Below are positions 1,203 to 23,200 of a stretch of DNA of 28,873 nt, piece after piece. The stretch comes from a virus. A model generated the notes under the pieces. That model saw only the letters and a list, made by a program, of their open reading frames with translations. It was not told where the DNA came from and made no database searches. Each line of letters begins with the position of its first letter. Position 1 is the stretch's first letter. The DNA is taken from positions 1 to 28,873 of IMG/VR virus record IMGVR_UViG_3300049893_000959, one strand, 5' to 3'. A program made the position numbers and the translations under genes.

Positions 1203-1212
1203 ATAATTACAC
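1203..1212 (-). promoter_or_regulatory. GTGTAATTAT intergenic element, candidate phage promoter (copy 1)
   Basis: The minus strand reads GTGTAATTAT, and its first base is 36 nt before the ATG of the 847-1176 gene. An ATATAAAG block follows about 10 nt later. The same core recurs before five other minus-strand genes. Promoter function is inferred from position and recurrence. Confidence 0.5.
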
Positions 1213-1220
1213 TAAATTGT

Positions 1221-2918
1221 CTAAAAAATGGCTGCAAAATTAGGCCATGCGCGGTCTATTTCAACAACTGGAGTGGCGCTGGCATATAAATGATATGCTT
1301 TTGCAGTTACATAACCCCCACTAGATTGATAGGTGAATGGTAAATCATATAGTTGCCGCCTTGGAATTCCGTCTTCGTAAAAAATAACGAAATTAATAAT
1401 ATCTTTATAATTTGTGTTAATTACGTATGAATTTTCACCATTTTGAACTAAATTAGCTTGAATGTCATATCCGCTATTAGCAATATAAGGATAAGCGCCA
1501 ATATCTCTATTTCGGGTGGTCCTAACTGAATCTCCCGCGCTATATGTTATATTTGAATTTATAAGTAATTGATTTTCTAAATAATTGATACCGGTAATTA
1601 CTGTATAATTTGAACTTCCTACAATTATTTTATCGCCAGATGTTATTCCATAGCCATCAAAGAAAAAGGTAGAGTCATAAACGTTTAATATATTTGTATT
1701 TGTGCCGTTTGCCGATGCGTAGGTCAATGGACCACCAGAGTTTATAGCTATCGAACCGCCTTTTAACTGATATCTTCCACCGGTTTGGAGGATAAACTGA
1801 GGATCGATGCCAGTTATTTCGTAGATTCCGGTTAAATCGCCACCAAGATATGACAAATTGTAATTTCCAGATAAGCCGGTGCATGATGGAATAGAGCCAG
1901 CTAGAGTGTTTGAATATGGTGGATATCCCGGTGTGCTGACATCAAAGAAGATATTATTTAATACCGTGTGATTATTACTATTTTCAAAAGAAACCGCGCC
2001 TCTTTTTGGTAAATTAGCTACGTTATTATTACAATATGTATTATTGTATAATTTAACACCGGATACTCCTTCGTAGCCATCTGCCGATCCAATATTAGCA
2101 ATAACGTTATATCTAGTAACTATAGTATGGCAAAATTGTCTTAAATCCGATGTATTTCTCATCAAAACGAAATGTCCATTGTCTAGAACATTCCGATCCA
2201 TAAAATTAGAATCTATTAAAATTTTGTTACAAACAACATTATTAGTCGCTATCGCAACTTGAACGCCATCGGTGTGATGTCCTAAAACTCCAGAACCAAC
2301 GTGTTCTGTAAAATCGCTGTCGCTACATTCGCCAAAGTAATTATTTCTAACTATATTTTGAACGCCGCCGATATTAGTATAGTCTCCAACTCTTTTAACA
2401 GAATTATACTCAACTAAATTACCAGTTCCGAACCCAAAAGCAATGGCATTTTCACCTACACTATCACCGGGAACACCTCTTGGATATTCAACTCTATTAC
2501 CGCGAATTATACAATTCACAGTGCCGCCGTTACTCATTCTTATTCCGATTTGGTCGGTATTGTGAATATAATTATCTATAATTTCACAATTTCTAGAACC
2601 AATAAGATAAATACCCTCCCAGTTTGTGGCTGTTCCGGTTTGTGTTATTTCAAAATTAATTATTTTGCTATTATGTCCGGGATTTAATTGAAATCCACGA
2701 GCTATTGTGCCTGGATCTGCAACGTAAATTATTGGATTTTGAAGGGTTCCAGTTCTAGTGGTAATAGAAATACGTTCGTCATACAATCCAGAACGAACAC
2801 GGACCAGATCTCCGGGGCTTACTGTGCTTGCTGCTTTTTGAATCGTAAGCCAAGAACCAGTATCAGAAAGGCCATTATAGGAATCGCTTCCACTTTTAGA
2901 AACGAAATATCTTGCCAT
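1221..2918 (-). CDS. Right-handed beta-helix tailspike-like protein
   Basis: 565 residues from ATG 2918 to TAG 1223-1221. The N-terminal cap (ARYFVSKSGSDSYNGLSD, then GDLVRVRSGLYDERISI about residues 35-51) and the repeated INFEI, IIDNYIH, IIRGNRV, IVRNNYF, ILIDSNFMD and LYNNTY strands up to about residue 330 are typical of a parallel beta-helix (pectin-lyase-like or NosD-like). The last 90 residues look like a separate C-terminal domain ending in AWPNFAAIF. Such proteins are usually trimeric tailspikes that bind or cleave host surface glycans. No certain catalytic residues are visible, so enzyme activity remains open. It lies 3 nt after the 2922-3482 fibre gene and shares its N-terminal pattern with the partial gene at the left edge. 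Confidence 0.85.
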   Translation of the reverse strand: MARYFVSKSGSDSYNGLSDTGSWLTIQKAASTVSPGDLVRVRSGLYDERISITTRTGTLQNPIIYVADPGTIARGFQLNPGHNSKIINFEITQTGTATNWEGIYLIGSRNCEIIDNYIHNTDQIGIRMSNGGTVNCIIRGNRVEYPRGVPGDSVGENAIAFGFGTGNLVEYNSVKRVGDYTNIGGVQNIVRNNYFGECSDSDFTEHVGSGVLGHHTDGVQVAIATNNVVCNKILIDSNFMDRNVLDNGHFVLMRNTSDLRQFCHTIVTRYNVIANIGSADGYEGVSGVKLYNNTYCNNNVANLPKRGAVSFENSNNHTVLNNIFFDVSTPGYPPYSNTLAGSIPSCTGLSGNYNLSYLGGDLTGIYEITGIDPQFILQTGGRYQLKGGSIAINSGGPLTYASANGTNTNILNVYDSTFFFDGYGITSGDKIIVGSSNYTVITGINYLENQLLINSNITYSAGDSVRTTRNRDIGAYPYIANSGYDIQANLVQNGENSYVINTNYKDIINFVIFYEDGIPRRQLYDLPFTYQSSGGYVTAKAYHLYASATPVVEIDRAWPNFAAIF

Positions 2919-2921
2919 TTA

Positions 2922-3482
2922 TTAAAACCCGCGACATAAACCAACGACACGCCACTTGCTGTCTCCGCTATAATATCTACAAGCAACTTCAAATTTAGAA
3001 CCTGAAGCATTTGGTATCATGCCGGTTACAATATCGGTACCAAAAGCAAAAACGTTATTCCATTGTAAATATCCGGTTTGCGCCAGTTGAAATCTAAACT
3101 GAAGTAATTGACCGTTTTGGATACTTCCAGTCGGAGCATTTATAGCTACTGAACCGGTTAAATTAACAGCATCTAATACATTTCCAAGATTAGTATTTGG
3201 TGTTATTGAATTAGAGTTACTAATATCAGAAAATCCGCCAGCTAAAATATAACTCCATGAATAGTCATTATCTGTACTTGACGATTTTCTTAGATATTGT
3301 CCTGATTGACCGCCAGCTATATTTGCGCCTCCTCCAGCGGTAGCATTTATTGCGCCACTTAGGGTTCCCCATGAAACTTTTTTGACTGTACCGTCTGTAT
3401 CTGGATTTGTCTGTACGACGAATACGTCTCCCGTCGCCAAGGTAGTGGCGTAATTTTTCTCTTTTATCTGAAAACTGGGCAT
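2922..3482 (-). CDS. Small tail fibre / virion protein
   Basis: 186 residues from ATG 3482 (MPSFQIKEKNYATTL). The first 40 residues (GDVFVVQTNPDTDGTVKKVSW) resemble the short attachment segment found at the start of many phage fibre proteins. A Gly/Ala-rich linker follows (about 45-65). The C-terminal 90 residues look like a compact beta domain ending SKFEVACRYYSGDSKWRVV, a pattern common at the tips of phage head or tail fibres. It is packed tightly with the downstream beta-helix gene (3 nt gap). It is probably a fibre or an adaptor for the tailspike; the ligand is unknown. Confidence 0.65.
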   Translation of the reverse strand: MPSFQIKEKNYATTLATGDVFVVQTNPDTDGTVKKVSWGTLSGAINATAGGGANIAGGQSGQYLRKSSSTDNDYSWSYILAGGFSDISNSNSITPNTNLGNVLDAVNLTGSVAINAPTGSIQNGQLLQFRFQLAQTGYLQWNNVFAFGTDIVTGMIPNASGSKFEVACRYYSGDSKWRVVGLCRGF

Positions 3483-3483
3483 A

Positions 3484-3909
3484 TTACTTAATAGTTAATA
3501 TTCTCTTTAGATTACACCCATTGGTATCAGTTGTCTGCCATCCAAGTAAATAACTGATATTATGATTAGTTTTGATTCCGTCGGTAAATGATATGTTATT
3601 TTTTTTGAAATAAATTAATCTTAATTTAAGATTTTTTATGTTACTATATGAGAAATCGTAATCGTCCTTATCTTTAGTGAAGATAATGTCATTTAATGAT
3701 ATTCCGTTTAATAAAAATTCGCCGGTTTTAAGATTTACGGTATATTCCTTATAATTATTTGGATCATTATTTCTGAGGGCGAAAGCGATTAACTTATCAT
3801 GATTTATATCGTAAAAACATGATTTTGTTGGATTTTGGATTGATTTATCCTCGTCGTTTTGTTCGAGAATGGTATTATCCGAATAGAGGGCAACAAATTT
3901 CAGTGGCAT
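3484..3909 (-). CDS. Hypothetical virion-cluster protein
   Basis: About 141 residues with the start placed at ATG 3909 (MPLKFVALYSDNTILEQNDE). A TTG at 3939 would lengthen it by 10 residues but would overlap the HNH gene, so I prefer the ATG. No family is recognised. It is rich in Asn, Lys, Asp and Ile, has no membrane segment, and contains YKEYTVNLKTGEFLLNGI, which reads like a beta-sheet protein. It lies between a homing endonuclease and a fibre gene, so a structural role is plausible but not shown. A GTGTAAT match at 3511-3517 lies inside this gene and is probably chance. Confidence 0.6.
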   Translation of the reverse strand: MPLKFVALYSDNTILEQNDEDKSIQNPTKSCFYDINHDKLIAFALRNNDPNNYKEYTVNLKTGEFLLNGISLNDIIFTKDKDDYDFSYSNIKNLKLRLIYFKKNNISFTDGIKTNHNISYLLGWQTTDTNGCNLKRILTIK

Positions 3910-3932
3910 AAATTGTATTTTGGGCCAACTTC

Positions 3933-4868
3933 TTAGCAATAAAGACTTTTAACGTATTTTTCTCCAATTAAATCTAAAACTTGGTTAGTCTCAGCTTCTA
4001 TAGTTGTGTGGCATTTGTTACAATAAGAAATTAAATTATTATTTAATGTTTTATAACAATTTGCTTTATTATAATCTACAATATTATCACGTTCAAAAAA
4101 ACGCCAAGGAATGATATGATGAACATCTAATTGTTTTTCGTGGTTAGCGGTTGTTTTTCCGCAATTTTGGCAGGTGTTATCATCACGATTACGAACGTCA
4201 TTTTTAATTTTTCCCCAACGCGGACCATAATATCTATCCGCCCAAGAACCACCTCGAAAATTATAAATTTTATCTCCAAAAAGATTTAGAGATTTCCATT
4301 CCCCATTGCATTTAGTGCAACAAAAAAATTTATTAGTTTTTGATTGTAATATTCTACTTTTTTTTACATAAATAATATTATCACATGTTGGTCCATCACA
4401 TTTTTGTTTAATAGAGCTAAATTTTGGATTTTTTTCTCCTATTAGATTAGATCTAAAAGTTCTCCAGCATATTTTAGAACAAAAATAATTTTTAGTTTTT
4501 TTAATTTTACATTGCTGTAATAAAAATTCCTTTCCGCATTGAGAACAATTTACTAATTTTTGTCTAAAATTTAATCCGCGACCAGTATTTGGATTGATAT
4601 TTCCTTTTTTCCCTGATAAAGCTTTTGAAATTTTTTGTTTATGTTCCTCTGAAAATTTATGACCTTTTAATGGTCCGTCATAATCTTTATATTTATTTTT
4701 TATCTTTATTCCTAATTGTTTAAAAAGTTTTCTTACTGTTGGTTGTGATGTTATTATCATTTTAGCAATATCTCTAGTAGTAATACCTTTTTCCCAATAT
4801 TTTTGTTCTAAAAAATCTTTAGAATATTCATTAAGAATTTCTTTTATAGTTTTACTATTTAATCTCAT
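3933..4868 (-). CDS. HNH homing endonuclease with HTH and NUMOD3-type modules
   Basis: 311 residues. Modules in order: a helix-turn-helix (about 29-54, TTRDIAKMIITSQPTVRKLF); a NUMOD3-like DNA-binding motif (about 68-88, HKFSEEHKQKISKALSGKKG); two zinc-binding CxxC...CxxxC stretches (about 108-180); and a C-terminal HNH nuclease (CQNC at 233-236, HHIIPW at 250-255, CNKCH at 283-287). The paired CxxC motifs around the HHII catalytic core define a zinc-binding HNH fold. Free-standing enzymes of this kind cut DNA to spread their own gene. The gene is notably AT-rich and sits between the 4872-5456 and 3484-3909 genes with gaps of 3 and 23 nt, so it looks like a cleanly inserted mobile gene. Family call secure; target site unknown. 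Confidence 0.93.
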   Translation of the reverse strand: MRLNSKTIKEILNEYSKDFLEQKYWEKGITTRDIAKMIITSQPTVRKLFKQLGIKIKNKYKDYDGPLKGHKFSEEHKQKISKALSGKKGNINPNTGRGLNFRQKLVNCSQCGKEFLLQQCKIKKTKNYFCSKICWRTFRSNLIGEKNPKFSSIKQKCDGPTCDNIIYVKKSRILQSKTNKFFCCTKCNGEWKSLNLFGDKIYNFRGGSWADRYYGPRWGKIKNDVRNRDDNTCQNCGKTTANHEKQLDVHHIIPWRFFERDNIVDYNKANCYKTLNNNLISYCNKCHTTIEAETNQVLDLIGEKYVKSLYC

Positions 4869-4871
4869 TGA

Positions 4872-5456
4872 TTAATTTTCTAAATACTGAATAGAATATA
4901 AAATAGGACCATTGGCAAAATCTCCAGCGGTTGCCGCAGTAGTCGTTTGTAGTTGTAATCCAACATAAGAACTCCAAGCTGGATTTGCGGTTGTAGAATT
5001 TGCCTTTCCAGTACAATTAGGTCCAGCATTAGCATTAATTCCAGTTCCGCCAACATGAACAGAAATACCGGTGGATGCTAATCCAGTTGATGTTAAATTT
5101 ACAGTAAAAACGGAATTAGTTGTTTGTGATGGAGTAGTATAAAACCCACTAGCTCCAGTGGCTACCATTAAACTTAATCCAGCACCTAAATTTCCACCGG
5201 TATGTTGAAATTTAATATCACTTATTGTGTTGTATGTTCCTGTAAAAAGAAAACTAATAAATTTTGAATAAGAATTAGTTCCCCCGGTAATTGGATAACT
5301 AGCATATGAAGAAGATGTATCGTCTATACTTTTTAGATTAACATTTGATATACCCGTTGTTCTGGTTGAACCTCTTGCCGGTTGTGTGCTTGCCGTTCCA
5401 TTATCTTCACAAATTTGAAACGATGCCGCTCTTAAAATTCTATGATAATTAAACAT
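4872..5456 (-). CDS. Hypothetical beta-rich virion protein
   Basis: 194 residues from ATG 5456 (MFNYHRILRAASFQICEDN). It is rich in Ser, Thr and Gly, with a beta pattern such as FISFLFTGTYNTISDIKF and LSLMVATGASGFY, and it ends in GPILYSIQYLEN. The composition is typical of phage head or tail surface proteins, but I do not recognise a named family. Its start overlaps the stop of the 5456-5725 gene by one base (TAATG), suggesting coupled translation. The HNH gene follows 3 nt after its stop. Confidence 0.6.
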   Translation of the reverse strand: MFNYHRILRAASFQICEDNGTASTQPARGSTRTTGISNVNLKSIDDTSSSYASYPITGGTNSYSKFISFLFTGTYNTISDIKFQHTGGNLGAGLSLMVATGASGFYTTPSQTTNSVFTVNLTSTGLASTGISVHVGGTGINANAGPNCTGKANSTTANPAWSSYVGLQLQTTTAATAGDFANGPILYSIQYLEN

Positions 5457-5725
5457 TAAAATGCTCCCTGTAAATATAAAGCTGGATTAAATGAAGAATT
5501 AACGCGATTAAGACCAAAAATATTAACAAATATAGTAGACGCGCCAGTTACATAAGCTGGTGGCGGCGAAGGTGGTGCGGCGGCGGCAACCTGTTGAATA
5601 ATAATGTAAGGATATAACTCCGGAGTTTTACTAAAGAAATCAAAGTTATTCGTTGATTCCTTGCTAATAAATGGAACCGTTTCGCCGTTTCTGTTAAAAA
5701 AATCAAACGAATTATTATTAGGCAT
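5456..5725 (-). CDS. Small hypothetical protein with Pro-rich segment
   Basis: 89 residues with the start placed at ATG 5725 (MPNNNSFDFFNRNGETVPFI). A TTG at 5743 would overlap the upstream gene by 16 nt and is less likely. The N-terminus holds two similar segments, NNNSFDFFNRNGE and STNNFDFFSKTPE, a short internal repeat. A low-complexity stretch, AAAAPPSPPPAY (about residues 49-60), precedes a short hydrophobic end. The family is not recognised. Position among small virion genes and the one-base TAATG overlap with the next gene suggest co-expression with structural proteins. Confidence 0.55.
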   Translation of the reverse strand: MPNNNSFDFFNRNGETVPFISKESTNNFDFFSKTPELYPYIIIQQVAAAAPPSPPPAYVTGASTIFVNIFGLNRVNSSFNPALYLQGAF

Positions 5726-5727
5726 AA

Positions 5728-6033
5728 TTAGTAGGCTTCCCAAACTATATAGCTAGTATTTAACGCTCCACTAGCTGTAACCGCGCCCTTCCATCTATCT
5801 TCAATATAAACACCAGCGGTTCCGTCGCCGCTGTTAGTTGCGGCTTTTAGAACGATATTAAAGTAAGTATTTGATGCTAAACCGGTTCCGAGAGCAATAT
5901 ATAATACTCCAGTTGATAAATTTTGAACGCAAAAATGACTACGATTGCCATTAATGCCAAGAATTAAACCGTTGTCACCGGATTTTGTGTAATTTGATAT
6001 AACACTAGCGATTGGAAATTTGCCATTATTCAT
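5728..6033 (-). CDS. Small virion-type hypothetical protein
   Basis: 101 residues from ATG 6033. It has a beta-rich pattern with NRSHFCVQNLSTGVLYIALG in the middle, then FNIVLKAAT and a terminal YIVWEAY. This resembles small proteins found repeatedly in phage structural clusters, although I cannot name a family or role. It is the first gene after a minus-strand terminator and the GTGTAAT element at 6055-6064, so it probably opens a new transcript that runs through the fibre genes. Confidence 0.6.
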   Translation of the reverse strand: MNNGKFPIASVISNYTKSGDNGLILGINGNRSHFCVQNLSTGVLYIALGTGLASNTYFNIVLKAATNSGDGTAGVYIEDRWKGAVTASGALNTSYIVWEAY

Positions 6034-6054
6034 AAAAATCTTTAGTTTTCTAGA

Positions 6055-6064
6055 ATAATTACAC
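6055..6064 (-). promoter_or_regulatory. GTGTAATTAT intergenic element, candidate phage promoter (copy 2)
   Basis: The minus strand reads GTGTAATTAT, starting 31 nt before the ATG of the 5728-6033 gene, with CTAAAG about 10 nt downstream. It lies just after the U-tract of the 6074-6105 terminator, which is where a promoter for the next unit would be expected. Function is inferred. Confidence 0.55.
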
Positions 6065-6073
6065 TAGAAATAA

Positions 6074-6105
6074 AAATAAAAATGCGAGAACTTGATGTTC
6101 TCGCA
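6074..6105 (-). terminator. Rho-independent terminator after the 6125-6478 gene
   Basis: A perfect 9-bp stem (6083-6091 with 6097-6105, TGCGAGAAC on both arms) with a 5-base loop is followed on the minus strand by TTTTTATTTTTATTT. It lies 20 nt past the stop of the 6125-6478 gene. Confidence 0.9.
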
Positions 6106-6124
6106 ATGTTTTGAAAGGCAAAAA

Positions 6125-6478
6125 TTAGGATCGAGTATAATACGGAATAGCAATACTTTGACCAGACGCATCAATAAATGGTAAAAATCCATTGGGAGCA
6201 CCGAGAAAAGTATTTAAATTAGCCGATCCGGTTCCACCATATCGGATACCGGTTACAGCTATACCAGCGCCACCAAGAAGAACGCTTAGTCCAGTTGGGA
6301 CAGTTTGACCCAACATCGCTATAGTGTTTACTACTTGCGTTCCAACTTGATAAGTAGTTCCATTAGAATTTATTGCCATTAATATTCCACTAGCGTCAAC
6401 ATATGTTTTGATAACGCTGGAGCTTGACGGTGCGCTGGGAGTAGTTGATTGGATTCTAAGTTCTTGATTTTGTGCCAT
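6125..6478 (-). CDS. Small structural-type hypothetical protein
   Basis: 117 residues from ATG 6478 (MAQNQELRIQSTTPSAPSSS). After a Ser/Thr/Pro-rich N-terminus, the segment VIKTYVDASGILMAINSNGT resembles the start of phage fibre proteins that carry short display repeats. The rest is Gly-rich and beta-like (GLSVLLGGAGIAVTGIRYGG) and ends FIDASGQSIAIPYY. It stands as a single-gene unit between a candidate promoter (6507-6516) and a strong terminator (6074-6105), which fits a virion protein needed in large amounts. The exact role is unknown. Confidence 0.6.
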   Translation of the reverse strand: MAQNQELRIQSTTPSAPSSSSVIKTYVDASGILMAINSNGTTYQVGTQVVNTIAMLGQTVPTGLSVLLGGAGIAVTGIRYGGTGSANLNTFLGAPNGFLPFIDASGQSIAIPYYTRS

Positions 6479-6506: not shown

Positions 6507-6516
6507 ACAATTACAC
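6507..6516 (-). promoter_or_regulatory. GTGTAATTGT intergenic element, candidate phage promoter (copy 3)
   Basis: The minus strand reads GTGTAATTGT, 36 nt before the ATG of the 6125-6478 gene. It is followed by TATAATATAAATA about 10 nt later, an AT block also seen at other copies. Function is inferred. Confidence 0.5.
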
Positions 6517-6851: not shown

Positions 6852-6854
6852 AAG

Positions 6855-7697: not shown

Positions 7698-8669
7698 TTA
7701 AATATTACAGTTGTTTTTTTTATTATTGCTGTTTTTGGTATTGGAGCCATTTTTTTGGTATTGGAGCCATTTTTCTGGGATTTGGAGAGTTTTGAAGAAG
7801 TGAGGGTATTGTTTTTTTTGTTTTTCTATTAATTCTAAAACTTGTGGTTGGTCCCATTTTCGGGACAGTTTGGGAACCGGAAATTGGCGAAGATAGTCGA
7901 TAATGACTAATGATTTCAATCCGCTTATACTATATCTATATGCATTAGAGTATGATGTTTTTTGTGGTCCATTATTTTTTCTATTTCTTATAAAAACATT
8001 AGGAAAATCTTCCATTATTAATGAATGAATATAATCTAAAGCCATTTGCGAACATGATGTCATTGATATTGAGGGTTTTTCGTGCGTTCCAGATGTTATT
8101 GAGCCGTCTCCGCATACATAACCTATAAACCAGCACCATTCTAGAAATCTGTCATTTAATATTGGTTTGGATATTCTATGAGCCTTTTGTGGGGTTATTG
8201 ACCAAATTGTGTTTAAATCTTGCATCCATTTAATTGCGCCATTAATTCTAATAGAGCAAGTTTCTTTAATTTTTCCATTTTTTATTCTTTTATTTATTTT
8301 TATTGGTCCGGTATTTTTTATCACCTTATTAAAATTTTCTAAAAGATGTATATCAACAGTTGAAATTTCTAATCTATAAGAATTGGTTTTGTAAGTCACG
8401 CTTGCGTCTGCGGCGCTAAATCCAGCGTAATATGAATTAATTGGATTTGGATCTGACCAAAAATTTTTATCATGAGTATATATTCTTCTAATATATTTGT
8501 TTCTAAAGCCTAATACACGAGAATGATCTTGACATGATTGCCCAGTTCTTCCAAGAATTTTACCTATTTCTTTAAACGAATATTTGGATGATTCTACAAG
8601 TTCTTTAAGTTCTATCTCTTCCGATGGTCTCCAATAATGATATGAATCTGTTTCGGGATGGAATGACAT
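7698..8669 (-). CDS. LAGLIDADG homing endonuclease with N-terminal HTH
   Basis: 323 residues. The N-terminus (about 12-55) is a Myb/HTH-like DNA-binding segment (WRPSEEIELKELVESSKYSF). The two LAGLIDADG helices are YYAGFSAADASV (about 80-91) and WFIGYVCGDGSI (180-191), each with the conserved acidic residue that binds the catalytic metal. A single protein with two motifs acts as a monomer. The last 18 residues come from a 20-bp tandem duplication that shifted the frame. The gene sits between the capsid terminator and the 7281-7652 gene, and its codons are AT-rich compared with the capsid gene, which fits a mobile insertion. It is free-standing, with no intron seen in the capsid gene. Confidence 0.93.
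   Translation of the reverse strand: MSFHPETDSYHYWRPSEEIELKELVESSKYSFKEIGKILGRTGQSCQDHSRVLGFRNKYIRRIYTHDKNFWSDPNPINSYYAGFSAADASVTYKTNSYRLEISTVDIHLLENFNKVIKNTGPIKINKRIKNGKIKETCSIRINGAIKWMQDLNTIWSITPQKAHRISKPILNDRFLEWCWFIGYVCGDGSITSGTHEKPSISMTSCSQMALDYIHSLIMEDFPNVFIRNRKNNGPQKTSYSNAYRYSISGLKSLVIIDYLRQFPVPKLSRKWDQPQVLELIEKQKKQYPHFFKTLQIPEKWLQYQKNGSNTKNSNNKKNNCNI
7735..7774 (-). repeat. Two perfect 20-bp tandem copies at the 3' end of the LAGLIDADG gene
   Basis: TTGGTATTGGAGCCATTTTT occurs at 7735-7754 and again at 7755-7774. Because 20 is not a multiple of 3, the second copy is read in another frame. With one copy removed, the protein would end PEKWLQYQKQQ followed by TAA TAA. Confidence 0.95.
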
Positions 8670-8759: not shown

Positions 8760-9869
8760 TTAAAATACAATCGCCGTGAGTACGCGACTGTCTAAACAAA
8801 TGCGCCCCTCTTCTAATTCTAAGAACCAACCAACTTTCTTAGATCTCGTACTCCACTGATCGTCTACCCGAACAACTACAGAACCACCGGTTTCTGAGTT
8901 GATTGCGACAGGACGAATAAGAGCTTCTCTCGTAGCATCCCATGCGAGAACCAATTCATCTACGCTCGCAGAGAAGGCACCACCGGCGGGACCATTCAAA
9001 CCAGTATCAAACTGATCAAACAACGTATTATAAGTTTGACTAACACCAAATTCAAGAGCCTCATGTAATCTTATACCATAGATCTCAGGGGCTCCAGCCG
9101 CATTGAAGATTTGGGTGCGAATCGATTCGGGAAGCGGAACAGCAGTTGATTCGTCAGTGTTCGGAACGGCGCGCGTATTCATTGGCTGATAAGCCCATGA
9201 TCTAATTTCTTCCATAGCTTCCGGAGAAAGCAACATGTCAGTAGCTCCTCTGCTATAAGGATTAGTAGGAGTACCACCATTAAACGCAACATTAATTCTC
9301 TTAGAACGAGTAATAAGATTATTAAAATCATCTAATTGAAGAACATTGGCGGTTGCGGCGGTAATAGTGTGAATATTACCATTAGTAGAGGCTTCGCCGA
9401 GGGCGCGTAGGACAACAAGCATCGCGTTCTTTTCTTGTTTCGCCATCGCTTCTTGAGCCATGCGATTGAGGGCCATACCAACAATCGGAACTCGGCCTCT
9501 CTTGATATTTCTCTCTAAAAGATGAACCGCGCTATCAATCGGATACGTGGTAAACTTCATTTCCTGTAAACCGGTAACAAGAGACGAGCCAAGACCACCA
9601 GCTACGGACTGATACCAAACGGTGACATGATCGACGGAGGTGCCGTAGAACATATCGAGCGGGAATGACGGGCTATCATCTTCGTTATAAGGAAAGTCCT
9701 TATAAAGCATGGGTGAAATAGGAGCCAAATCAAGCACCTGTTGGATAATGGGTCCAACAAAGGCCGCAAAAGCGTGGCGCGCTTTCATCGCGGTCTCTGG
9801 GTTCTTATCGGCCATCGCTTGGATCAGTTCGACCTGTTTTGGTGTGTATTTGAGCTGAATTTTATTCAT
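8760..9869 (-). CDS. Major capsid protein (HK97-like fold, probable)
   Basis: 369 residues from ATG 9869. Length, gene order (protease-scaffold, small decoration protein, this gene, strong terminator) and composition fit a major capsid protein. Features include an early amphipathic region (AFAAFVGPIIQQVLDLAPIS), a long central helix like the HK97 spine helix (VPIVGMALNRMAQEAMAKQE, then NAMLVVLRALGEAS, about 128-162) and many small beta segments towards DELVLAWDATREALIRPVAI and GWFLELEEGRICLDSRVL. The DNA is clearly richer in G+C than its neighbours, as expected for codon selection in a very highly expressed gene. No Shine-Dalgarno is seen; the leader is almost pure A/T. The fold is inferred from pattern and context. 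Confidence 0.85.
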   Translation of the reverse strand: MNKIQLKYTPKQVELIQAMADKNPETAMKARHAFAAFVGPIIQQVLDLAPISPMLYKDFPYNEDDSPSFPLDMFYGTSVDHVTVWYQSVAGGLGSSLVTGLQEMKFTTYPIDSAVHLLERNIKRGRVPIVGMALNRMAQEAMAKQEKNAMLVVLRALGEASTNGNIHTITAATANVLQLDDFNNLITRSKRINVAFNGGTPTNPYSRGATDMLLSPEAMEEIRSWAYQPMNTRAVPNTDESTAVPLPESIRTQIFNAAGAPEIYGIRLHEALEFGVSQTYNTLFDQFDTGLNGPAGGAFSASVDELVLAWDATREALIRPVAINSETGGSVVVRVDDQWSTRSKKVGWFLELEEGRICLDSRVLTAIVF

Positions 9870-10494: not shown

Positions 10495-10581
10495 TTTGTT
10501 ATTTTATTTAAATTTTGATTATTTTGTATCTATTCGTTATTACAATGTTTTTTGTTATTTGTGAAAAAATATTTGTTATTT
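10495..10581. repeat. Three copies of TTTGTTATTT in the leader of the decoration gene
   Basis: Direct copies lie at 10495-10504, 10551-10560 and 10572-10581, the last crossing the stop of the protease-scaffold gene. A weaker version of the GTGTAAT element (TTGTAATAAC, 10538-10547) lies among them. The region is AT-rich, so chance is possible. Confidence 0.3.
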
Positions 10582-12072
10582 AATTTTTACAATACAATTC
10601 TTGGGATCGAATTCCTTGGCCCATTCAGCGTATAAGTCTTCAGCAACCGTAGTAGAATTGGGAATTTCGTTGGTTTTTTCTCCATTTTTGAGAGCATCTT
10701 CTACAACCGTATCGGCAGCAGAGGGATTCGGAGTTGAAGCATTAGATTCCAAAAGTTTCTTTGCTTCGGCTTTTTCCTTGGCTTCGGCAATAGCCTTTTT
10801 GTTAATTGATTTAAATAAAACAGCGGCTTTCTTTTGATAAGCAACAAAACCATCTTCATCTAAATTTTTAATATCAGAGGCAATTATTGCTCTGTATTCA
10901 CTATCGAGTTCATATTCGCTATCAAAATAAGACATTCTGGCGTTAAAAGTTTGCTCGGCTTCTTGTGCAACTACCTTGTTATTAAGATCTTCGAACTTTT
11001 TGGTGAGATCGGCCAATTCCTTCTGCGCCTGTTCGGCTTTCTCGGCGGCGGCAGCTAGTTTATTCGTTAATTCAGCGGCTTCGGCTTCTTTCGCTGAAAC
11101 CTGAGATTTCCACTGTTCATTTGCTTTATCTATTTCGCTATCAATGAAATCAGTAATTACTGACGCGCTAACTTCTTTTAAGATAGAATCGGTAATGTCA
11201 GAAAGTTTAGTAATTTTAGGCATATTTTCTTCAGGATTTATTTGTTTATCGTTTCTATCTAAAATTACATCAGATTTTGAATTTTGTGAAATATCGTCAT
11301 TTTTTTCTTCATTTTTCTCTTCTTTTTCTTCACTATTTACTATTTCTAATCCAATAACATTTCCAGCGGGATGAGAAACTATTCCAACTCCTAATCCAAC
11401 ACAAAAATCATCTTTAATTAAACGATAAACAATATTTCCATTTTTATCTTTTCCAGATCCATTATTTGATGGAAGATATTGTTCATATTCTTGTTTTTGT
11501 TTTTCGTCGGTGATTACTTTCGCTTCGCTTACGTATTTAGATCCGACGCAAATATCATAATTTTTGAATAAAAGTTCCCACGAAAAACTTAAAGAATTAT
11601 AATCTGGACTATTTTCATCTACAGAATTCTCTAAAAGATCAATAAATCTATCACTTAATACTGATTTATACAAAAGAACGGCAATTGAGATATTTATTGG
11701 ATTTTCTTCTTTTATTGCTTCTTCTTCGGTTAGAATTTCATTTGTTCCATATTTGGAAAATCCGTAATTACAAATAGTTCCAATTATTATATTTTTCTTG
11801 TGTTCGGCATTTACGTATTTATAAACAAAACTTTTTGCTATTTTTATTGCAGTTTCATTTGAAATGGCATCAAAATTTTTATTAACTAAACCACCGACGC
11901 AAAGATTTCCAACAATTCCTATTAAATCTGGATTTTCATTTAAATTTATTTCTTTTGGAAGTAATTTGGTTAATTTTTCTAATCCGGCTATTGATATGTA
12001 TTTGTCAAGTTCGGAATTTGATATTTTTTGGATTCTTGACGCGAAAGTGGACTTAAATGGATAATCGTTCAT
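10576..12072 (-). CDS. Prohead protease fused to scaffold protein
   Basis: 498 residues from ATG 12072. Residues about 1-250 resemble a prohead maturation protease: VYKYVNAEHKKNIIIGTICN has the expected catalytic His; LSFSWELLF is the strand expected to hold the catalytic Ser; and CVGLGVGIVSHPAGNVIGLE matches the end of the domain. An acidic, disordered linker follows (about 252-285). Residues about 285-460 form an Ala/Glu/Lys-rich coiled coil (AAAAEKAEQAQKELADLTKK) typical of a scaffold. The scaffold would organise the capsid shell and the protease would later cut it out. The internal ATG at 11223 (MPKITKLSDITDSILKEV) could give a free scaffold, as in lambda C/Nu3. The first half is AT-rich and the second half is richer in G+C, like the capsid gene. 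The domain calls are from pattern and order. Confidence 0.78.
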   Translation of the reverse strand: MNDYPFKSTFASRIQKISNSELDKYISIAGLEKLTKLLPKEINLNENPDLIGIVGNLCVGGLVNKNFDAISNETAIKIAKSFVYKYVNAEHKKNIIIGTICNYGFSKYGTNEILTEEEAIKEENPINISIAVLLYKSVLSDRFIDLLENSVDENSPDYNSLSFSWELLFKNYDICVGSKYVSEAKVITDEKQKQEYEQYLPSNNGSGKDKNGNIVYRLIKDDFCVGLGVGIVSHPAGNVIGLEIVNSEEKEEKNEEKNDDISQNSKSDVILDRNDKQINPEENMPKITKLSDITDSILKEVSASVITDFIDSEIDKANEQWKSQVSAKEAEAAELTNKLAAAAEKAEQAQKELADLTKKFEDLNNKVVAQEAEQTFNARMSYFDSEYELDSEYRAIIASDIKNLDEDGFVAYQKKAAVLFKSINKKAIAEAKEKAEAKKLLESNASTPNPSAADTVVEDALKNGEKTNEIPNSTTVAEDLYAEWAKEFDPKNCIVKIK

Positions 12073-12084: not shown

Positions 12085-12094
12085 ATAATTACAC
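12085..12094 (-). promoter_or_regulatory. GTGTAATTAT intergenic element, candidate phage promoter (copy 4)
   Basis: The minus strand reads GTGTAATTAT, beginning 22 nt before the ATG of the protease-scaffold gene and immediately after the U-tract of the 12095-12127 terminator. If it is a promoter it would drive the capsid genes. Function is inferred. Confidence 0.55.
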
Positions 12095-12127
12095 CATAAA
12101 AATAAAAAACCGCCATAAAGGCGGTTT
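12095..12127 (-). terminator. Rho-independent terminator before the capsid operon
   Basis: A perfect 8-bp stem (AAACCGCC, 12107-12114 with 12120-12127, 5-base loop) is followed on the minus strand by TTTTTATTTTTATG. It lies 29 nt past the stop of the 12157-12582 gene. Confidence 0.9.
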
Positions 12128-12156
12128 CTTAATTGAGATGATTATTAATTTTTTAA

Positions 12157-12587: not shown

Positions 12588-12716
12588 TTAAAATAAAATT
12601 CCACCTATAATTACAGCAAAAACAAGAGTTTTGACTACCGGAACTTTAAGACCTTTAATGTCAATAAAGAGGTCAAAAGCCCAAAATTTCTTAGCAAATA
12701 TCTTGAATTTGTCCAT
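12588..12716 (-). CDS. Small single-pass membrane protein
   Basis: 42 residues with the start placed at ATG 12716 (MDKFKIFAKKFWAFDLF). An ATG further upstream, at 12794, would overlap the 12742-12927 gene and is not preferred. The C-terminus holds one hydrophobic segment (VPVVKTLVFAVIIGGILF, about 25-42), and the N-terminus is basic. The start lies 31 nt after the GTGTAAT element at 12738-12747. Small membrane proteins between tail and head genes can serve in lysis (holin-like) or assembly; none of these can be claimed here. No lysin gene is visible nearby. Confidence 0.5.
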   Translation of the reverse strand: MDKFKIFAKKFWAFDLFIDIKGLKVPVVKTLVFAVIIGGILF

Positions 12717-12737: not shown

Positions 12738-12747
12738 AATATTACAC
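12738..12747 (-). promoter_or_regulatory. GTGTAATATT element overlapping a stop codon, candidate promoter (copy 5)
   Basis: The minus strand reads GTGTAATATT, 31 nt before the ATG of the 12588-12716 gene, followed by ATAATAAAC. Its TAA (12744-12742) is the stop codon of the 12742-12927 gene, so this copy is partly coding. Confidence 0.45.
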
Positions 12748-18200: not shown

Positions 18201-18844
18201 GAAAATAGTGGGCGATAGTGTCCTTCATATTCTACTGTAGTTGCATATGTATTACCGTATTCATTTTTATTTTCTGGATCTGATATTGTTTCAGATAATA
18301 CAGTAAATTTAACATTAATATCTGCCGCTTGGCATTCTTTATTTAGTATTCTATAATATTTTGTGTAGTCTTTATTAATATCATCTGCTTGACCGGCGGC
18401 GCTTAGTGTTGTTCCGCGCAGTCTTTCTCCTATTTGTCTTGTTATTGTAAGTTCTGGATCGCTCTGATTTACTAAAGAACCATCTGGGGTCCCAAATGAA
18501 TATGAAGTGTCAATTCGTTGAAAATTATATTTATTATCACTACTAACAACCGGAACCTCGCCCCAGTAAATGGATCGCAAAAATTTGGATGTTGAATTTG
18601 GTGGATTTGGATATGGATGAAAATAATTATACTGCCAGCCAATTTCACCGGCATTTCCAGATGTTCCGGTTGGAGGATAATAACCGGTAACTAATCCTTG
18701 AATTTCGCCTTCACATATTAAATCTAATACTTCTATTTCAGTAAGGGAGAGGGCTCCTTTTGGCAAATAATTACCGTTGGCGTCGTATTGTCCCAAAACG
18801 GCGTCTGTTACTGGATATTCAACTGGATAATGTTGTTCAGCCAT
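15248..18844 (-). CDS. Tail tip / host specificity protein, lambda gpJ-like
   Basis: 1198 residues from ATG 18844, close to lambda gpJ (1132). The N-terminal third includes the start SLTEIEVLDLICEGEIQGLV, typical of the family, and WTDNPAWCYYDLLTNQRYGL (about 352-371), which matches the lambda WTDNPAW segment. The region after it (FTCNLSINSRDEAYKVINDM and onwards) is the phage_tail_3/TipJ domain. The rest is made of beta-sandwich, fibronectin-like repeats to the C-terminus, which in this family carries the receptor-binding end. The protein forms the central tip of the siphovirus tail and contacts the host. The order L-K-I-J upstream supports the call. It overlaps both neighbours by one base. 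Confidence 0.93.
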   Translation of the reverse strand: MAEQHYPVEYPVTDAVLGQYDANGNYLPKGALSLTEIEVLDLICEGEIQGLVTGYYPPTGTSGNAGEIGWQYNYFHPYPNPPNSTSKFLRSIYWGEVPVVSSDNKYNFQRIDTSYSFGTPDGSLVNQSDPELTITRQIGERLRGTTLSAAGQADDINKDYTKYYRILNKECQAADINVKFTVLSETISDPENKNEYGNTYATTVEYEGHYRPLFSTVGKTPPYYYLGFREKVKGKLNYGYIKSSRITFYGNFQNEKDFVGWEIKIIRITPDSLGTNLRNQTFIDSLTEIYSDTYLYPNSAIVRSRFSAEFFSQIPTRAFEVELLKVKIPDTYDPRKKTYTEPAEGWSGSFHSSKQWTDNPAWCYYDLLTNQRYGLGKYLPEANIDKWTLYEIGKYCDQLVPDGYGGLEPRFTCNLSINSRDEAYKVINDMASIFRGITYYAGGTIYTVQDSPKDPIYQFTNDNVEDGNFVYSSSSQRVRHTVAIVRYNDKTNFYRPAIEYVEDFDGIRQYGIRELEINAFGCTSRGQAKRLGKWVLLTEKTETETVSFNAGIEGSFIRPGDIIQVFDSNRKLNKLAGRTLRIDNEGRSRVLLDSYITGLNTGSVYKFDILTPSYYYNPIEISDLSGVDYNNIRRPQLQSISFTGYQASGITVDGNTKTEITFDTALNTSSYNVTGNLVWSIELYSGYLNTTTGTTTINESYGHLDKYYDYYRVIKNQEEDFKCNIIALNHNILKYNDLETGLFFDRPVREYKTIPEPPQALSVYPIKRSRNTRSLGFSYTPVNYSGITSYRVYADTNPSNILTKNPPEDRFLVSNLPADVLGGTLNTYTTGTYYFKVFSSNDEANILSPSGITGHSIIEGSYPIRDVIISSLRIKDVTTAGLSGDKTKSGVYDLDSPVFTWQVGLDANSINPLDFKYRISVRPPSLNNIPSSTIYYQDTGYAAPYENPRFQFDLGLNINISGGPYRKYDLVVEAIDPSGKTSAGNSVTTNYSYTENGWSSNPYGYDIVNVDNPRITGIYLTSGNSMPSDLRTQQWIDADGSIKVLITSGNLPAKTVGGYIYSSSGFFTTSHLYSGLVDIIEMNPITPASNFMSSSSRLNYTNSGWMAIALYDKFDSELQKKGIYLGLDLPVSNIVPVYASGDLHSFRATRRIDIYNTNNLNDFNSLQMERASEDSKTYAYSKFVDNDGREFIGASRLI

Positions 18845-20871
18845 TAATATTCTCCATTATACAAAAATGCAAAATTAGGCCAAAGTTTATCTTGATATCT
18901 GTCCCATTTGCCGCCTATCATTATTCTTCCATCGGTTAATGTTGATGCTGTAAAGTTTTCGTCGTCCCGGCATAGAACTTTATAGACAATGGTATCAGGT
19001 TCGCCCGGATCGAATCTAGAGATAAAAGAAGTATCGAGTGATCCATTTGTATTTAATCTAGCTAAATTTTTACTTGATAGCGTGTTTCCAATTGTGTCTG
19101 AAATTGTATCCCATTGTCCACCTATTAAAATTTTTCCATCTCTAGTCTGAACATAAATTGAACGTATCGATATATTAGATCCAGTAAAACTGGGAGATGT
19201 AAATGATGAGTCATTACTTCCGTTGGTATTGATTCTGGTGATGTAATGCTTGTCAGTGTCGGAGGCAACAGAAGTAAAATCACCAGCCACAAGTAGTTTG
19301 CTATTGGAATCCAGTTTTATATCATATACGGTTCCATTCATAACTTCCGGATCTGAAAATGATAAATCTAAGGCACCAGTTGAATCTAATTTCGCAACTC
19401 GACCCCTGGTGGTTCCATTTACACTTGTGAAATTACCACAAATAAATATATTATCAGAACCATCAACGATTACGCATCTTATTGTTGATGAAGCTGAAAT
19501 TCCAGACCATGATGATAAATCGGTTGCATTGTGTCTAATTTTTCCATTTCCGTCTATAACTTTTGTAAATTTTCCAAGATTTGGTTTTGTTATTGTTGAT
19601 GCCGACTGTCCAATTTCTGTGGATGAATATTCTGTAAAATCCCCGCAAATAAAAGTATCGCCAGATGTATTGGTGGCAGATGATCCTGGTTTTATAAAAG
19701 ATCCGTATACAGTTCCATTTGCTGTGACTATAGCTATATCGCCGGTTCCATCGTATCCGCCATCGTTTTTGTCACTGAAAATAATTAGATTGTTTTTAAA
19801 AAGTTTTGATTGAGAAAACCTGTTTGGGGGGATAAAAATATTAAATATTCCACCGAGTACAGCATGTCCGGAAAGAGATCCGCGTTTCATTATCGTGTAA
19901 AAAAATGATTCACCGGCCATATCGCTTGTTATTAACAGGGGTGGGGGTCCAATTTCACTAAGTAGTGGCCCGCCATACTGTTCAAATTTATGATCATCTT
20001 GAATGTCTTTAAAAAATTTATATCCAACTCTTCTTTCGGCTCCGTAGCCATAATATCCTTCGGTGACTTTTGTATTTCCTCTAAATATTAATATTGGTGA
20101 TGATTTTATTTTGTTAATTCCCATGCTATACTGGATATCGTAGTCTCCAGTTCCATGACTAATTTCTTTTCCGTCTTGATCATGAAAGTCTAAAGCTCCA
20201 GGTGTAGTATCATTTTCTCCTAAAATTGCATTTGCACTTATATTGCTAATTACATAAGCTGCTGATATCACCTGACTTCCAACAATTAATCTTCCATAGC
20301 CAACTGGAACTGGTCCACCTTCATTTACTGTATTTTCTGGACCATTAAATAAATATGACTTTTTACCCGCACTAGAATCTATTTGTCTAAAATCGTCAAA
20401 TTTGGGTGGCCTCATTAGTAAATTAATAACTCCTCCCGCTATTAATCCAAGACCGGCAACAATTAATGGTGCGGCCCATGCTGGACCGGCGAATGCTAAT
20501 CCAACGATAGCCAAAACAACCCCAAGAATAACAGTAAAAATACCTAAAATTTCATCTCCAGCTCCCTCTAAAACTGGAACTATTTCTATTGTTTTTAATT
20601 TTGAATTTTTTATAGAAAGTTCAGAATCTTGAATATTATTTAAATTATTTAAATCTTTATCTGTTTTGAATGGTTCTCCATTTATAATCATTTTATAGCG
20701 AACGCCAGCTTTATCCCTTTCTAGCAACCAAGGATAAAGTTTTCTTTTTGAATTGATATTGATGGCGTGGATGGCTTCGGAAATAGACGAAACACAAAGA
20801 TTATATTCTTTATGAAAATTCTTTCCAAGTTCGCCATATAATTTAACTTTTACAGCTTTTTGTTGTTCCAT
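18844..20871 (-). CDS. Tail assembly protein, lambda gpI-like, fused to delta-60 beta-propeller
   Basis: 675 residues from ATG 20871; lambda gpI is only about 220. Residues 1-210 match gpI: a ubiquitin-like start, a Gly-rich hydrophobic stretch at about 110-155 (VILGVVLAIVGLAFAG), and the signature YLFNGPENTVNEGGPVPVGY (173-192) with GSQVISAAY. Residues about 380-675 hold five blades of delta-60-type repeats (FICGDFT, FICGNFTSVNGT, LLVAGDFTSV, ILIGGQWDTIS, IMIGGKWDRY, with ARLNTNGSLDTSF-type linkers), a beta-propeller surface domain. The fusion is unusual. The gpI part should help assemble the tip, and the propeller could be exposed for binding. Both are clear in sequence; the combined role is inference. 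Confidence 0.85.
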   Translation of the reverse strand: MEQQKAVKVKLYGELGKNFHKEYNLCVSSISEAIHAININSKRKLYPWLLERDKAGVRYKMIINGEPFKTDKDLNNLNNIQDSELSIKNSKLKTIEIVPVLEGAGDEILGIFTVILGVVLAIVGLAFAGPAWAAPLIVAGLGLIAGGVINLLMRPPKFDDFRQIDSSAGKKSYLFNGPENTVNEGGPVPVGYGRLIVGSQVISAAYVISNISANAILGENDTTPGALDFHDQDGKEISHGTGDYDIQYSMGINKIKSSPILIFRGNTKVTEGYYGYGAERRVGYKFFKDIQDDHKFEQYGGPLLSEIGPPPLLITSDMAGESFFYTIMKRGSLSGHAVLGGIFNIFIPPNRFSQSKLFKNNLIIFSDKNDGGYDGTGDIAIVTANGTVYGSFIKPGSSATNTSGDTFICGDFTEYSSTEIGQSASTITKPNLGKFTKVIDGNGKIRHNATDLSSWSGISASSTIRCVIVDGSDNIFICGNFTSVNGTTRGRVAKLDSTGALDLSFSDPEVMNGTVYDIKLDSNSKLLVAGDFTSVASDTDKHYITRINTNGSNDSSFTSPSFTGSNISIRSIYVQTRDGKILIGGQWDTISDTIGNTLSSKNLARLNTNGSLDTSFISRFDPGEPDTIVYKVLCRDDENFTASTLTDGRIMIGGKWDRYQDKLWPNFAFLYNGEY

Positions 20872-20874
20872 TTT

Positions 20875-21591
20875 TTATGACTTTAACCTAATTACGTGAG
20901 TCACTTTATTTTGAAAAAATTTATCAAAAATCTCCATTTTAGAAAATTGATAGCGTGGATGATGAAGAAAAATTCCATCCTCTACATATAATCCAATATG
21001 GTGCGGGGGACCATTTATGTTTGTATAATTAAATAATATAATATCGTTTTTTGATATATTATACTTCCAATTATCAAGAATATTAAATTGATTACTTTTA
21101 TTTAAATTATCAAGTATTAAATTTTTATTTGATAAATACCATTTTTCGTCCATTTCTGGTATATTAGCCGCAATAATAGTATTTAATTCGTTTTTATAAA
21201 AATCAAAAATAAGTGAAAAACAATTATTTGTCTTATAGTCAAATTTTCTTCCTATATATTTATTTGAATAGTCACTTGGATAGAAAACATTAAATTCGTC
21301 CGTTTCTAGGCAATACATTACGTATATTTTGTTATGATTTGTAGAATTTACCTTGTCAAATTCGCTAAAATTCTTGTTTTTGGCGTGTGAATGATATACG
21401 GCTGCTATTTTATTCTCTTTTTCCGCTTCGATATAGTCTAGTGGGTGAATAGAAAATGTTTTATGTTTTAAGCATGACACATTTCTGGCTCTAAATATAT
21501 CGTTATCATCAAGAATAAAACCACAAACCTCCTCGTTTGGAAATTCAAGTGAATGTTTTTTTATTTTTGATTTAATTATATCTGTTAACAT
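20875..21591 (-). CDS. Tail protein with JAMM and NlpC/P60 domains, lambda gpK-like
   Basis: 238 residues from ATG 21591. The first half is a JAMM (MPN) zinc-peptidase-like domain: Glu20 or Glu21 in PNEEVCGF and HSHAKNKNFSEFD at 67-79. The second half is an NlpC/P60 papain-like domain with the probable catalytic Cys124 (TNNCFSL) and His198 (PPHHIGLY). Lambda gpK has the same order. The NlpC domain may cut peptidoglycan cross-links during entry, and the JAMM domain may process a tail protein. The gap from the second His to the Ser (six residues) is one shorter than the usual JAMM spacing. The gene lies between L and I. Confidence 0.9.
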   Translation of the reverse strand: MLTDIIKSKIKKHSLEFPNEEVCGFILDDNDIFRARNVSCLKHKTFSIHPLDYIEAEKENKIAAVYHSHAKNKNFSEFDKVNSTNHNKIYVMYCLETDEFNVFYPSDYSNKYIGRKFDYKTNNCFSLIFDFYKNELNTIIAANIPEMDEKWYLSNKNLILDNLNKSNQFNILDNWKYNISKNDIILFNYTNINGPPHHIGLYVEDGIFLHHPRYQFSKMEIFDKFFQNKVTHVIRLKS

Positions 21592-22637
21592 TATCTAGCT
21601 AATTTATTTACCGAGGGAAAACCACAATATTTTAGTCTTCCTTTAACGATGCCAGTTGAGCCTGGAATAACAGCACCAGATGTTCCCCATCTTAATTTAC
21701 ACCCACTGACAAATCTTGAGCAATTATCGGCTATCCAGTATCTAGTATCAGGCGGAGATGCTAATGGATTATTTATAGATGCTACAAAATAGTATTTTAT
21801 GTTATTTTTTTGAATAAAAACATAATGTCCTTTTTTATAGGGAATATTTGTTTGGTATTCGCCCATATCAACAAGTGAAATATTCCCAAGGATTTCTGTA
21901 ATCAATTCATCTTTTTCATTTGCTATTGGGGGAGCGTCAAGTGGTAATGTTGCATTATTATGTATTGATGTAATTCTAGATGCTGATTCATAACAGCATC
22001 CTTCTCCCCTATATTGAGCAGGACAAACATTAGAAACGACAAGTCTGCCCGGTAGTTTAATCCCATCTACATTTATAATTGGAGATAATTCGTATTCTAT
22101 TGATGACTTATCTTCTCTTGATTTTCTATCAAAATAAAATATATCTCTCGGAAATTCGGCATATGGATCTGGGTCTGGTGAAAATCCATGAATATCGCTT
22201 AAAAAATTTTGAGCATCTAAATATTTAGCAAATGTTCTTATTCTTGTTATTTTCGCGCCAACAAGGTCGCCGATTTGACGAATATAAACTTTTAACCTTG
22301 AAAATTCGGGAATTCCTTGATCTGATACGGTTATTGACAGTTTGGGTTCTGGAATGGTTCCATCTCCAGTGTATTCCATTCCTGTTATTTGAATTGGAAT
22401 AGCAATATATTCATTGCCACGCCAATAAATAGAAGAATCAAATAGTTTTATATTATTATGGAATCTAAATATTCCAAGAAATGGATTATTTATAATATCT
22501 GAATTTTTAATAATCCCAAGGTCAATAGCGAGATTAGATATATCTATTTCAAACATGCTTACTACAGTTGTCGGTGTTAGTGACAGTAAATCACTTTGAA
22601 TTTTCTTTGATGATATTTGTGCTTGGGCTTTTTCCAT
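21591..22637 (-). CDS. Minor tail protein, lambda gpL-like, with probable Fe-S site and inserted domain
   Basis: 348 residues from ATG 22637; lambda gpL is about 232. The N-terminal part (LLSLTPTTVVSMFEIDISNL, GNEYIAIPIQITGMEYTGDG) is typical of gpL. Cysteines at 205, 214/215, 306 and 313 have spacings of 9 and 7 residues on each side of a long insertion, as in the four lambda gpL cysteines that hold an iron-sulphur cluster (from memory, positions 173, 182, 205, 212). Between them lies an extra stretch, including a carbohydrate-binding-like segment at about 259-305 (YKKGHYVFIQKNNIKYYFVA). It overlaps its neighbours M and K by one base each. It acts in tail-tip assembly. Confidence 0.88.
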   Translation of the reverse strand: MEKAQAQISSKKIQSDLLSLTPTTVVSMFEIDISNLAIDLGIIKNSDIINNPFLGIFRFHNNIKLFDSSIYWRGNEYIAIPIQITGMEYTGDGTIPEPKLSITVSDQGIPEFSRLKVYIRQIGDLVGAKITRIRTFAKYLDAQNFLSDIHGFSPDPDPYAEFPRDIFYFDRKSREDKSSIEYELSPIINVDGIKLPGRLVVSNVCPAQYRGEGCCYESASRITSIHNNATLPLDAPPIANEKDELITEILGNISLVDMGEYQTNIPYKKGHYVFIQKNNIKYYFVASINNPLASPPDTRYWIADNCSRFVSGCKLRWGTSGAVIPGSTGIVKGRLKYCGFPSVNKLAR

Positions 22638-23152
22638 TAGACAACCGTTTCTTCAAAAAGGCATTTAATTGAATAATTATTATAGAAATCAATAGAAATA
22701 GGAAATTGTAGGCATTTCCATCTTTTTTTCTTTCCAAAAGGAGGCGGAAGGGTAAAAAGAAACGTTCCACCATTTCTGGTTGATAAAAAATGAACAATTG
22801 CTAGAGCCTCGTCAACATTTCTTCCATTGAATTGAGCGTCAATTGTTATTAGATTGTTGTTTATTCCGTCTGGAATAATTTGTGAGTATCCATTAGAAAA
22901 TTTAATTACTTGTGTTCTTGGGGACATGTCTATGCTTAAACTATAGGACGGAAGCCAAAAAAACTCTGGTTTTGTAGAATTGTCTATTGGATCATATCCC
23001 ATTCCGCCCCATCTGGTGCCACCTGGAGATGGCGTATTGTTGCTATTATTATCTATTAAAGAATAATAGTAATCGTTGTTTTGTTTTACTGTATTATTTT
23101 TGGAATAAACAGTAGAACTGTTCCATGTTGAAATAGAATAAATATCTGGCAT
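22637..23152 (-). CDS. Minor tail protein, lambda gpM-like, with N-terminal carbohydrate-binding-like segment
   Basis: 171 residues from ATG 23152. Residues about 60-171 (PEFFWLPSYSLSIDMSPRTQ, then GYSQIIPDGINNN and TFLFTLPPPFGKKKRW) match the phage minor tail M family, which joins the tip to the tail tube. Residues about 8-50 (STWNSSTVYSKNNTVKQNND, YYYSL, NNTPS) resemble CBM5/12 chitin-binding-like modules, with their W, Y, V, YY and TP pattern. The gene is first in the M-L-K-I-J series and lies 30 nt after the GTGTAAT element at 23173-23182. No tape-measure gene is found upstream, because the opposite-strand block begins there. Confidence 0.85.
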   Translation of the reverse strand: MPDIYSISTWNSSTVYSKNNTVKQNNDYYYSLIDNNSNNTPSPGGTRWGGMGYDPIDNSTKPEFFWLPSYSLSIDMSPRTQVIKFSNGYSQIIPDGINNNLITIDAQFNGRNVDEALAIVHFLSTRNGGTFLFTLPPPFGKKKRWKCLQFPISIDFYNNYSIKCLFEETVV

Positions 23153-23172
23153 ATTATCAATACCTATCTCAA

Positions 23173-23182
23173 TAAATTACAC
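23173..23182 (-). promoter_or_regulatory. GTGTAATTTA element, candidate promoter for the M-L-K-I-J genes (copy 6)
   Basis: The minus strand reads GTGTAATTTA, 30 nt before the ATG of the M-like gene, in the 71-bp divergent region between the minus and plus blocks. Function is inferred. Confidence 0.55.
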
Positions 23183-23190
23183 GAAATTGC

Positions 23191-23200
23191 CTGTAATATT
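23191..23200 (+). promoter_or_regulatory. CTGTAATATT element, candidate promoter for the plus-strand block
   Basis: The plus strand reads CTGTAATATT, 33 nt before ATG 23224. It shares the TGTAAT core with the minus-strand elements and sits back to back with the copy at 23173-23182. This is the only plus-strand candidate next to a gene start. Confidence 0.45.

Follow-up and report, generated by a model that had tools for sequence, protein, structure and literature searches.

The word GTGTAAT, found upstream of genes in a 28.9 kb tailed-phage fragment (IMGVR_UViG_3300049893_000959; the whole stretch analysed, called the window here) and in its relatives, is very probably the start signal of late genes in a family of large uncultured phages. 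It is likely that it acts as a single-element, -10-like late promoter used by the host RNA polymerase with a phage sigma factor, giving rise to leaderless or short-leader mRNAs. The lineage would consist of large siphovirus-like phages with contigs of about 170-210 kb, to which the window would also belong. In the mechanism proposed, a small phage sigma factor made up of regions 2 and 4 alone would load onto the host RNA polymerase core, the loaded polymerase would recognise GTGTA(A/T)(A/T) alone, without a -35 box, and RNA would begin about 8 nt past the last base of the element, in most cases at a purine preceded by a pyrimidine. Ordinary host sigma70-type promoters (TTGACA-17-TANNNT) would serve the earlier genes. 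In the relatives, numerous promoters of either class would have the A of the ATG as the first transcribed base, which would produce leaderless mRNA; virion genes, including those of the window, would receive short leaders instead.

GTGTAAT copies in the window

The tail genes of the window resemble lambda-type tail proteins (J at E=3e-147, and the adjoining tail genes). Seven copies of GTGTAAT are located on its minus strand, and all of them (7/7) lie 15-31 nt upstream of an ATG, with gaps of 15, 23, 24, 24, 28, 29 and 31 nt between the end of the 7-mer and the ATG. These seven ATGs start open frames of 42 to 498 codons. Because only 6.9% of the minus-strand positions have a comparable ATG (frame of at least 42 codons) 15-31 nt downstream, this placement would be expected by chance with a probability of about 7e-9. 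It is the placement before ATG, rather than the total count, that constitutes the signal: both strands together contain 8 copies versus 4.1 expected, which is only a mild excess, and the sole plus-strand copy (5987) lies within a gene, off target. Chance words in AT-rich DNA might be invoked on the grounds that the raw count is merely twice the expectation, but this explanation, to which practically no weight can be given, is refuted by the placement and by its independent replication in the relatives.

The six minus-strand copies listed in the first-pass annotation (cores at 1206, 6058, 6510, 12088, 12741 and 23176) all exist and, as it had claimed, precede ATGs. The copy at 3511 had been set apart there as lying inside a gene; it does overlap the 3' end of an ORF, but it also stands 28 nt upstream of the ATG of gene 2922-3482, and it therefore joins the promoter set as its seventh member. 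The gene after the 12741 copy starts at ATG 12716, not where the longer ORF does. The features of the window are the following:

1206..1212, minus strand: predicted GTGTAAT promoter core; predicted start 1198, ATG 1176, gene 847-1176
3511..3517, minus strand: predicted GTGTAAT promoter core, overlapping the 3' end of upstream ORF 3484-3939 and reclassified from 'inside a gene'; predicted start 3503, ATG 3482, gene 2922-3482
6058..6064, minus strand: predicted GTGTAAT promoter core; predicted start 6050, ATG 6033, gene 5728-6033
6083..6105, minus strand: terminator-like hairpin with T-run; 18 nt separate its end from the 6058 promoter downstream; putative unit boundary
6510..6516, minus strand: predicted GTGTAAT promoter core; predicted start 6502, ATG 6478, gene 6125-6478
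12088..12094, minus strand: predicted GTGTAAT promoter core; predicted start 12080, ATG 12072, gene 10576-12072
12103..12131, minus strand: terminator-like hairpin; 8 nt separate its end from the 12088 promoter downstream; putative unit boundary
12741..12747, minus strand: predicted GTGTAAT promoter core; predicted start 12733, ATG 12716, 42-residue ORF 12588-12716
23176..23182, minus strand: predicted GTGTAAT promoter core; predicted start 23168, ATG 23152, minor tail protein phrog_14
23191..23197, plus strand: CTGTAAT variant with 1 mismatch, facing the divergent gene; ATG 23224, gap 26
28145..28173, minus strand: predicted sigma70-type promoter, given for contrast (TTGACA, 17 nt, TATTCT), 26 nt upstream of gene 27108-28118; coordinates hand-derived from the printed sequence

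Short-gap copies are absent from the window, where the predicted leaders are of about 8-24 nt. Two of the copies are found directly downstream of the terminator-like hairpins at 6083-6105 and 12103-12131. A terminator followed by a promoter is expected where one transcription unit stops and the next one starts, and the juxtaposition is suggestive of such boundaries; the number of terminator-like hairpins in the region is no higher than chance.

Gene 10576-12072 is syntenic with the gene of the relatives that precedes the second virion gene and the capsid-like gene. The hydrophobic 42-residue ORF 12588-12716 (minus strand), placed between structural genes, has its own predicted GTGTAAT promoter and possibly encodes a lysis or membrane protein. 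Two stand-alone endonuclease genes are also inserted among the structural genes, at 3933-4868 and 7698-8669, both on the minus strand (HNH; phrog_4645 endonuclease), and the second of them has a 35% identical homologue in the relative G001 (L039:265-1263). Gene 27108-28118 (minus strand), under a sigma70-type promoter, is probably an early gene. TTGAC promoters also precede its orthologues in G001, G006, G008 and G007/G011; the protein is conserved in most relatives and lacks a strong family match.

Enrichment and conservation in the relatives

The capsid-like protein of the window (8760-9869) gave zero matches among 50,697 phage records and no match in a host search against bacterial genomes. 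Its relatives were found in IMG/VR, with identities of 38-55%, several of them on contigs of 172-211 kb. Nine related contigs (G001, G003-G009 and G011; loci L039-L114) were analysed with one common pipeline, in which each 7-mer upstream of the predicted starts was ranked against the remainder of the same contig; the gene caller was simple, the start being the first ATG. This ranking and the spacing analysis were chosen because free EM motif finding in 21-nt windows drifted to A/T-rich sequence in several genomes.

In the closest relative, G001 (182 kb), GTGTAAT holds rank 1 in this unbiased ranking (21 seen vs 0.31 expected). It is also first in the window (6 upstream vs 0.05 expected) and in G006, and it occupies ranks 2-8 in G003, G004, G005, G007, G008 and G009. 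In G011 the first two ranks correspond to the variants GTGTAAA and AGTGTAA; this contig and G007 are the same virus, and the picture is unchanged without it. Apart from G001 and G006, the relatives show GTGTAAT, AGTGTAA, GTGTATA or GTGTAAA at or near the top beside TTGACA, which is the -35 box of ordinary promoters. GTGTAAT or a near variant is among the strongest upstream words in 9/9 relatives, so the enrichment upstream of genes on which the first-pass annotation had staked its proposal in advance is indeed found. As a positive control, the same pipeline puts the known ATAAATA/TATAAAT of T4 first, and the control regions of T4 and of Rhizobium phage L338C contain 0 upstream copies of GTGTAAT. 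The literature searched, which left out most subscription journals, yielded no description of GTGTAAT or GTGTAA phage late promoters.

The consensus of the element is GTGTA(A/T)(A/T), abbreviated as GTGTAWW, with weakly A/T-rich flanks on either side. It is oriented with the gene (215 sense vs 59 antisense sites in the same upstream windows), and from these 59 antisense sites about one quarter of the pooled GTGTANN sites can be considered background. The profile is flat at the place upstream of GTGTAWW where a -35 box would be expected, the extended -10 of sigma70 (TGNTATAAT) is not visible at these sites, and they do not fit the standard TTGACA and TATAAT boxes; the first-pass annotation had noted a mismatch with T4 late, T7 and usual sigma70 two-box promoters. 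The AT block about 10 nt later, which it had noted for most copies, had to be discarded as a second element: among 85 leader-bearing sites from the window and the relatives there is no strongly conserved position downstream, and the block is merely A/T-rich.

Where two genes diverge, each direction has a copy of its own, as is best seen at the minor tail gene pair 22637-23152 (minus strand) and 23224-24084 (plus strand). The predicted promoter before the orthologue of 22637-23152 is kept in G001, G005 and G007/G011, and GTGTAAT or GTGTAAA occupies the matching divergent position before the 23224-24084 orthologues of G001 and G005. The gene that faces the other way in G007/G011 is a weaker homologue of 24929-27133 and likewise has GTGTAAT/GTGTAAA. 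The elements have been retained at orthologous pairs whose proteins are 31-47% identical. The arrangement bears on the idea that GTGTAWW is a translation signal acting at the RNA level. Such a role would explain why the element nearly always precedes an ATG, but it is hardly credible in view of gaps that range from 7 to about 40 nt, of the two window copies located directly after terminator-like hairpins and of the divergent pairs with one copy each way.

Spacing, predicted leaderless mRNA and genes served

The spacing was analysed in a pool formed by the window and the nine relatives, in which ATGs with an open frame were counted. Gaps of 0-6 nt account for 9 open ATGs in total, whereas 60 are found at gap 7, followed by 25, 13 and 13 at gaps 8, 9 and 10; a second, broad group extends over about 15-32 nt. 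The reversed control word shows no such pattern (counts of 2 and 2). The base preceding the ATG at gap 7 is a pyrimidine in 59/61 cases (T48, C11, A2, G0), and a pyrimidine before the start is the usual step at transcription starts. The simplest reading of these data is that transcription would start about 8 nt past the last base of GTGTAWW, usually at a purine after a pyrimidine, so that the gap-7 genes would be leaderless.

The same distances are of use to evaluate whether GTGTAWW could be the operator of a phage activator or repressor standing beside an undetected promoter. A short conserved word upstream of genes is what such an operator would look like; nevertheless, at a gap of 7 a further -10 could not fit between GTGTAWW and the ATG, and the strict orientation, the gap floor and the pyrimidine-purine step suit a polymerase footprint, which makes the operator very improbable.

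The host-type promoters of the relatives behave in a similar way, since at 151 sites TTGAC-(17)-TANNNT ends exactly 6 nt before the ATG; in 136 of these the base that precedes the ATG is a pyrimidine (T or C). Widespread leaderless early genes under host-type promoters are predicted from this spacing. The promoters of T4 show no comparable peak. As regards the start codons, in 23/46 short-gap genes the alignment with the best homologue begins no later than residue 8 of either protein, and the rest are mostly partial matches. Shine-Dalgarno content (45% in the leader class, 25% in the short-gap class and 19% in the others) was dismissed as a class marker, the difference between classes being only modest. 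On balance, it seems that this large-phage lineage would run mainly on leaderless mRNA from both promoter types, its virion genes being set apart by short leaders. If this is true, the hosts would be built for leaderless translation, or the phage would shift the ribosome towards it.

Among the genes preceded by GTGTAWW with a leader are those for tail fibres, tail spikes, J, minor tail and internal virion proteins. Those with TTGAC promoters include the genes for DNA polymerase, helicase, primase, ribonucleotide reductase, clamp loader and rII. Read from sequence, the division between the two sets resembles the usual early/late split, and the gene content suggests late timing for the GTGTAWW genes. 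Products of the short-gap GTGTAWW genes of the relatives include homing and HNH endonucleases, endonuclease VII, PhoH and methyltransferases; this endonuclease-rich class, predicted to be late and leaderless, contrasts with the virion-rich leader class.

The candidate sigma factor and known promoter systems

Every relative larger than 170 kb has one gene for a sigma-like protein of about 200 residues, which also occurs in G006, G011 and G013. The family profile matches with E=1e-60 in G005 and 5e-48 in G001; compared with solved structures, it finds region 2 of SigA/RpoD (E=5e-10) and region 4 of RpoH (E=1e-4). Protein by protein, Pfam region 2 is at or slightly under the cut-off, and single-protein scans recover near relatives only. 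Among the phage records there is only one borderline match to the sigma (E=7e-3). The AlphaFold model contains domains 2 and 4 (mean pLDDT 82; the domain arrangement is uncertain, pTM 0.49), and its top PDB matches are all sigma factors, the best being sigma32 (E=1e-5). By these comparisons of sequence and predicted fold the protein is classed as a phage-encoded sigma70-family factor. Its alignment with SigA retains the KFST motif, and the residues after it differ. In sigma70 the residues that follow KFST contact the -10 box; by analogy, the differing ones may set a new specificity. Region 4 would permit contact with a -35 box, yet a -35 motif is not seen.

Additional sigma-like genes are found beside the conserved one in G008 (L100:10474-11061) and G007 (L089:14426-15283), the one in G008 being closer to ordinary sigma factors. 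The window does not contain the sigma gene, presumably because it is a fragment. The pairing of sigma factor and motif is a co-occurrence, and all the large relatives examined carry both. A phage sigma factor as the reader, one of the possibilities raised by the first-pass annotation, fits with this conserved gene and with the failure to find a phage RNA polymerase in seven relatives, and we infer that it would direct the host core RNA polymerase to GTGTAWW.

Another conceivable reader of the element is an alternative sigma factor of the host, or a host sigma70 altered by a phage protein. TGTAAT differs from TATAAT in one base, for which reason a remodelled sigma70 holoenzyme is conceivable; besides, the relatives also use TTGAC/TANNNT promoters, and G007 and G008 each have the further sigma-like gene. 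Against this, a single orthologous phage sigma is found in all the relatives above 170 kb, the motif is common to contigs of 35-50% GC, which probably infect different hosts, and a -35 box is lacking and the sigma70 extended -10 is not visible, so that a host reader is regarded as unlikely.

These results provide an uncultured group of large phages with a candidate sigma factor and with a promoter code, and the code allows early and late genes to be called from sequence alone. The leaderless placement, if true, would offer a natural test of the translation of leaderless messages from large viruses, and the sigma-element pair could be an orthogonal expression tool.

T4 late promoters (TATAAATA), which depend on gp55, gp33 and gp45, use a phage sigma factor on the host core. 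They resemble GTGTAWW in being a single -10 element before virion genes, and the relatives have some T4-like genes (rII, clamp loader). However, TATAAATA is not the element found here, the phage sigma has region 4 unlike gp55, to which it shows no detectable similarity as a homologue, and T4 promoters lie 14-40 nt from the ATG, without a peak at 7. Promoters of phage polymerases (T7, phiKZ/AR9) were discarded, as neither single- nor multi-subunit phage RNA polymerases were found in 7 relatives (the PF00940 search had no positive control).

The middle/late promoters of phiEco32 (tAATGTAtA) have one element, are used by the host core with the phage sigma gp36, and start 6-8 bp downstream (PMC8948821). 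GTGTAWW shares with them the -10-like element without a -35 box, and a similar start distance is predicted here from the gap floor and the pyrimidine-purine step. The word and the type of virus are different, and gp36 has been described as lacking region 4; a homology between gp36 and the sigma reported here was rejected (hhalign probability 0.1, no detectable similarity). In phage 7-11, the phage sigma gp47 serves late genes through GTAAtg-16-aCTA (PMC8948821), which is comparable as regards the phage sigma and the late genes, but its promoters have two boxes and GTGTAWW has one. Finally, most middle and late transcripts of the Thermus phage phiYS40 are leaderless (PMC3594737); the phages analysed here are different ones, and leaderless placement is predicted for both host-type and phage-type promoters, in a separate lineage.
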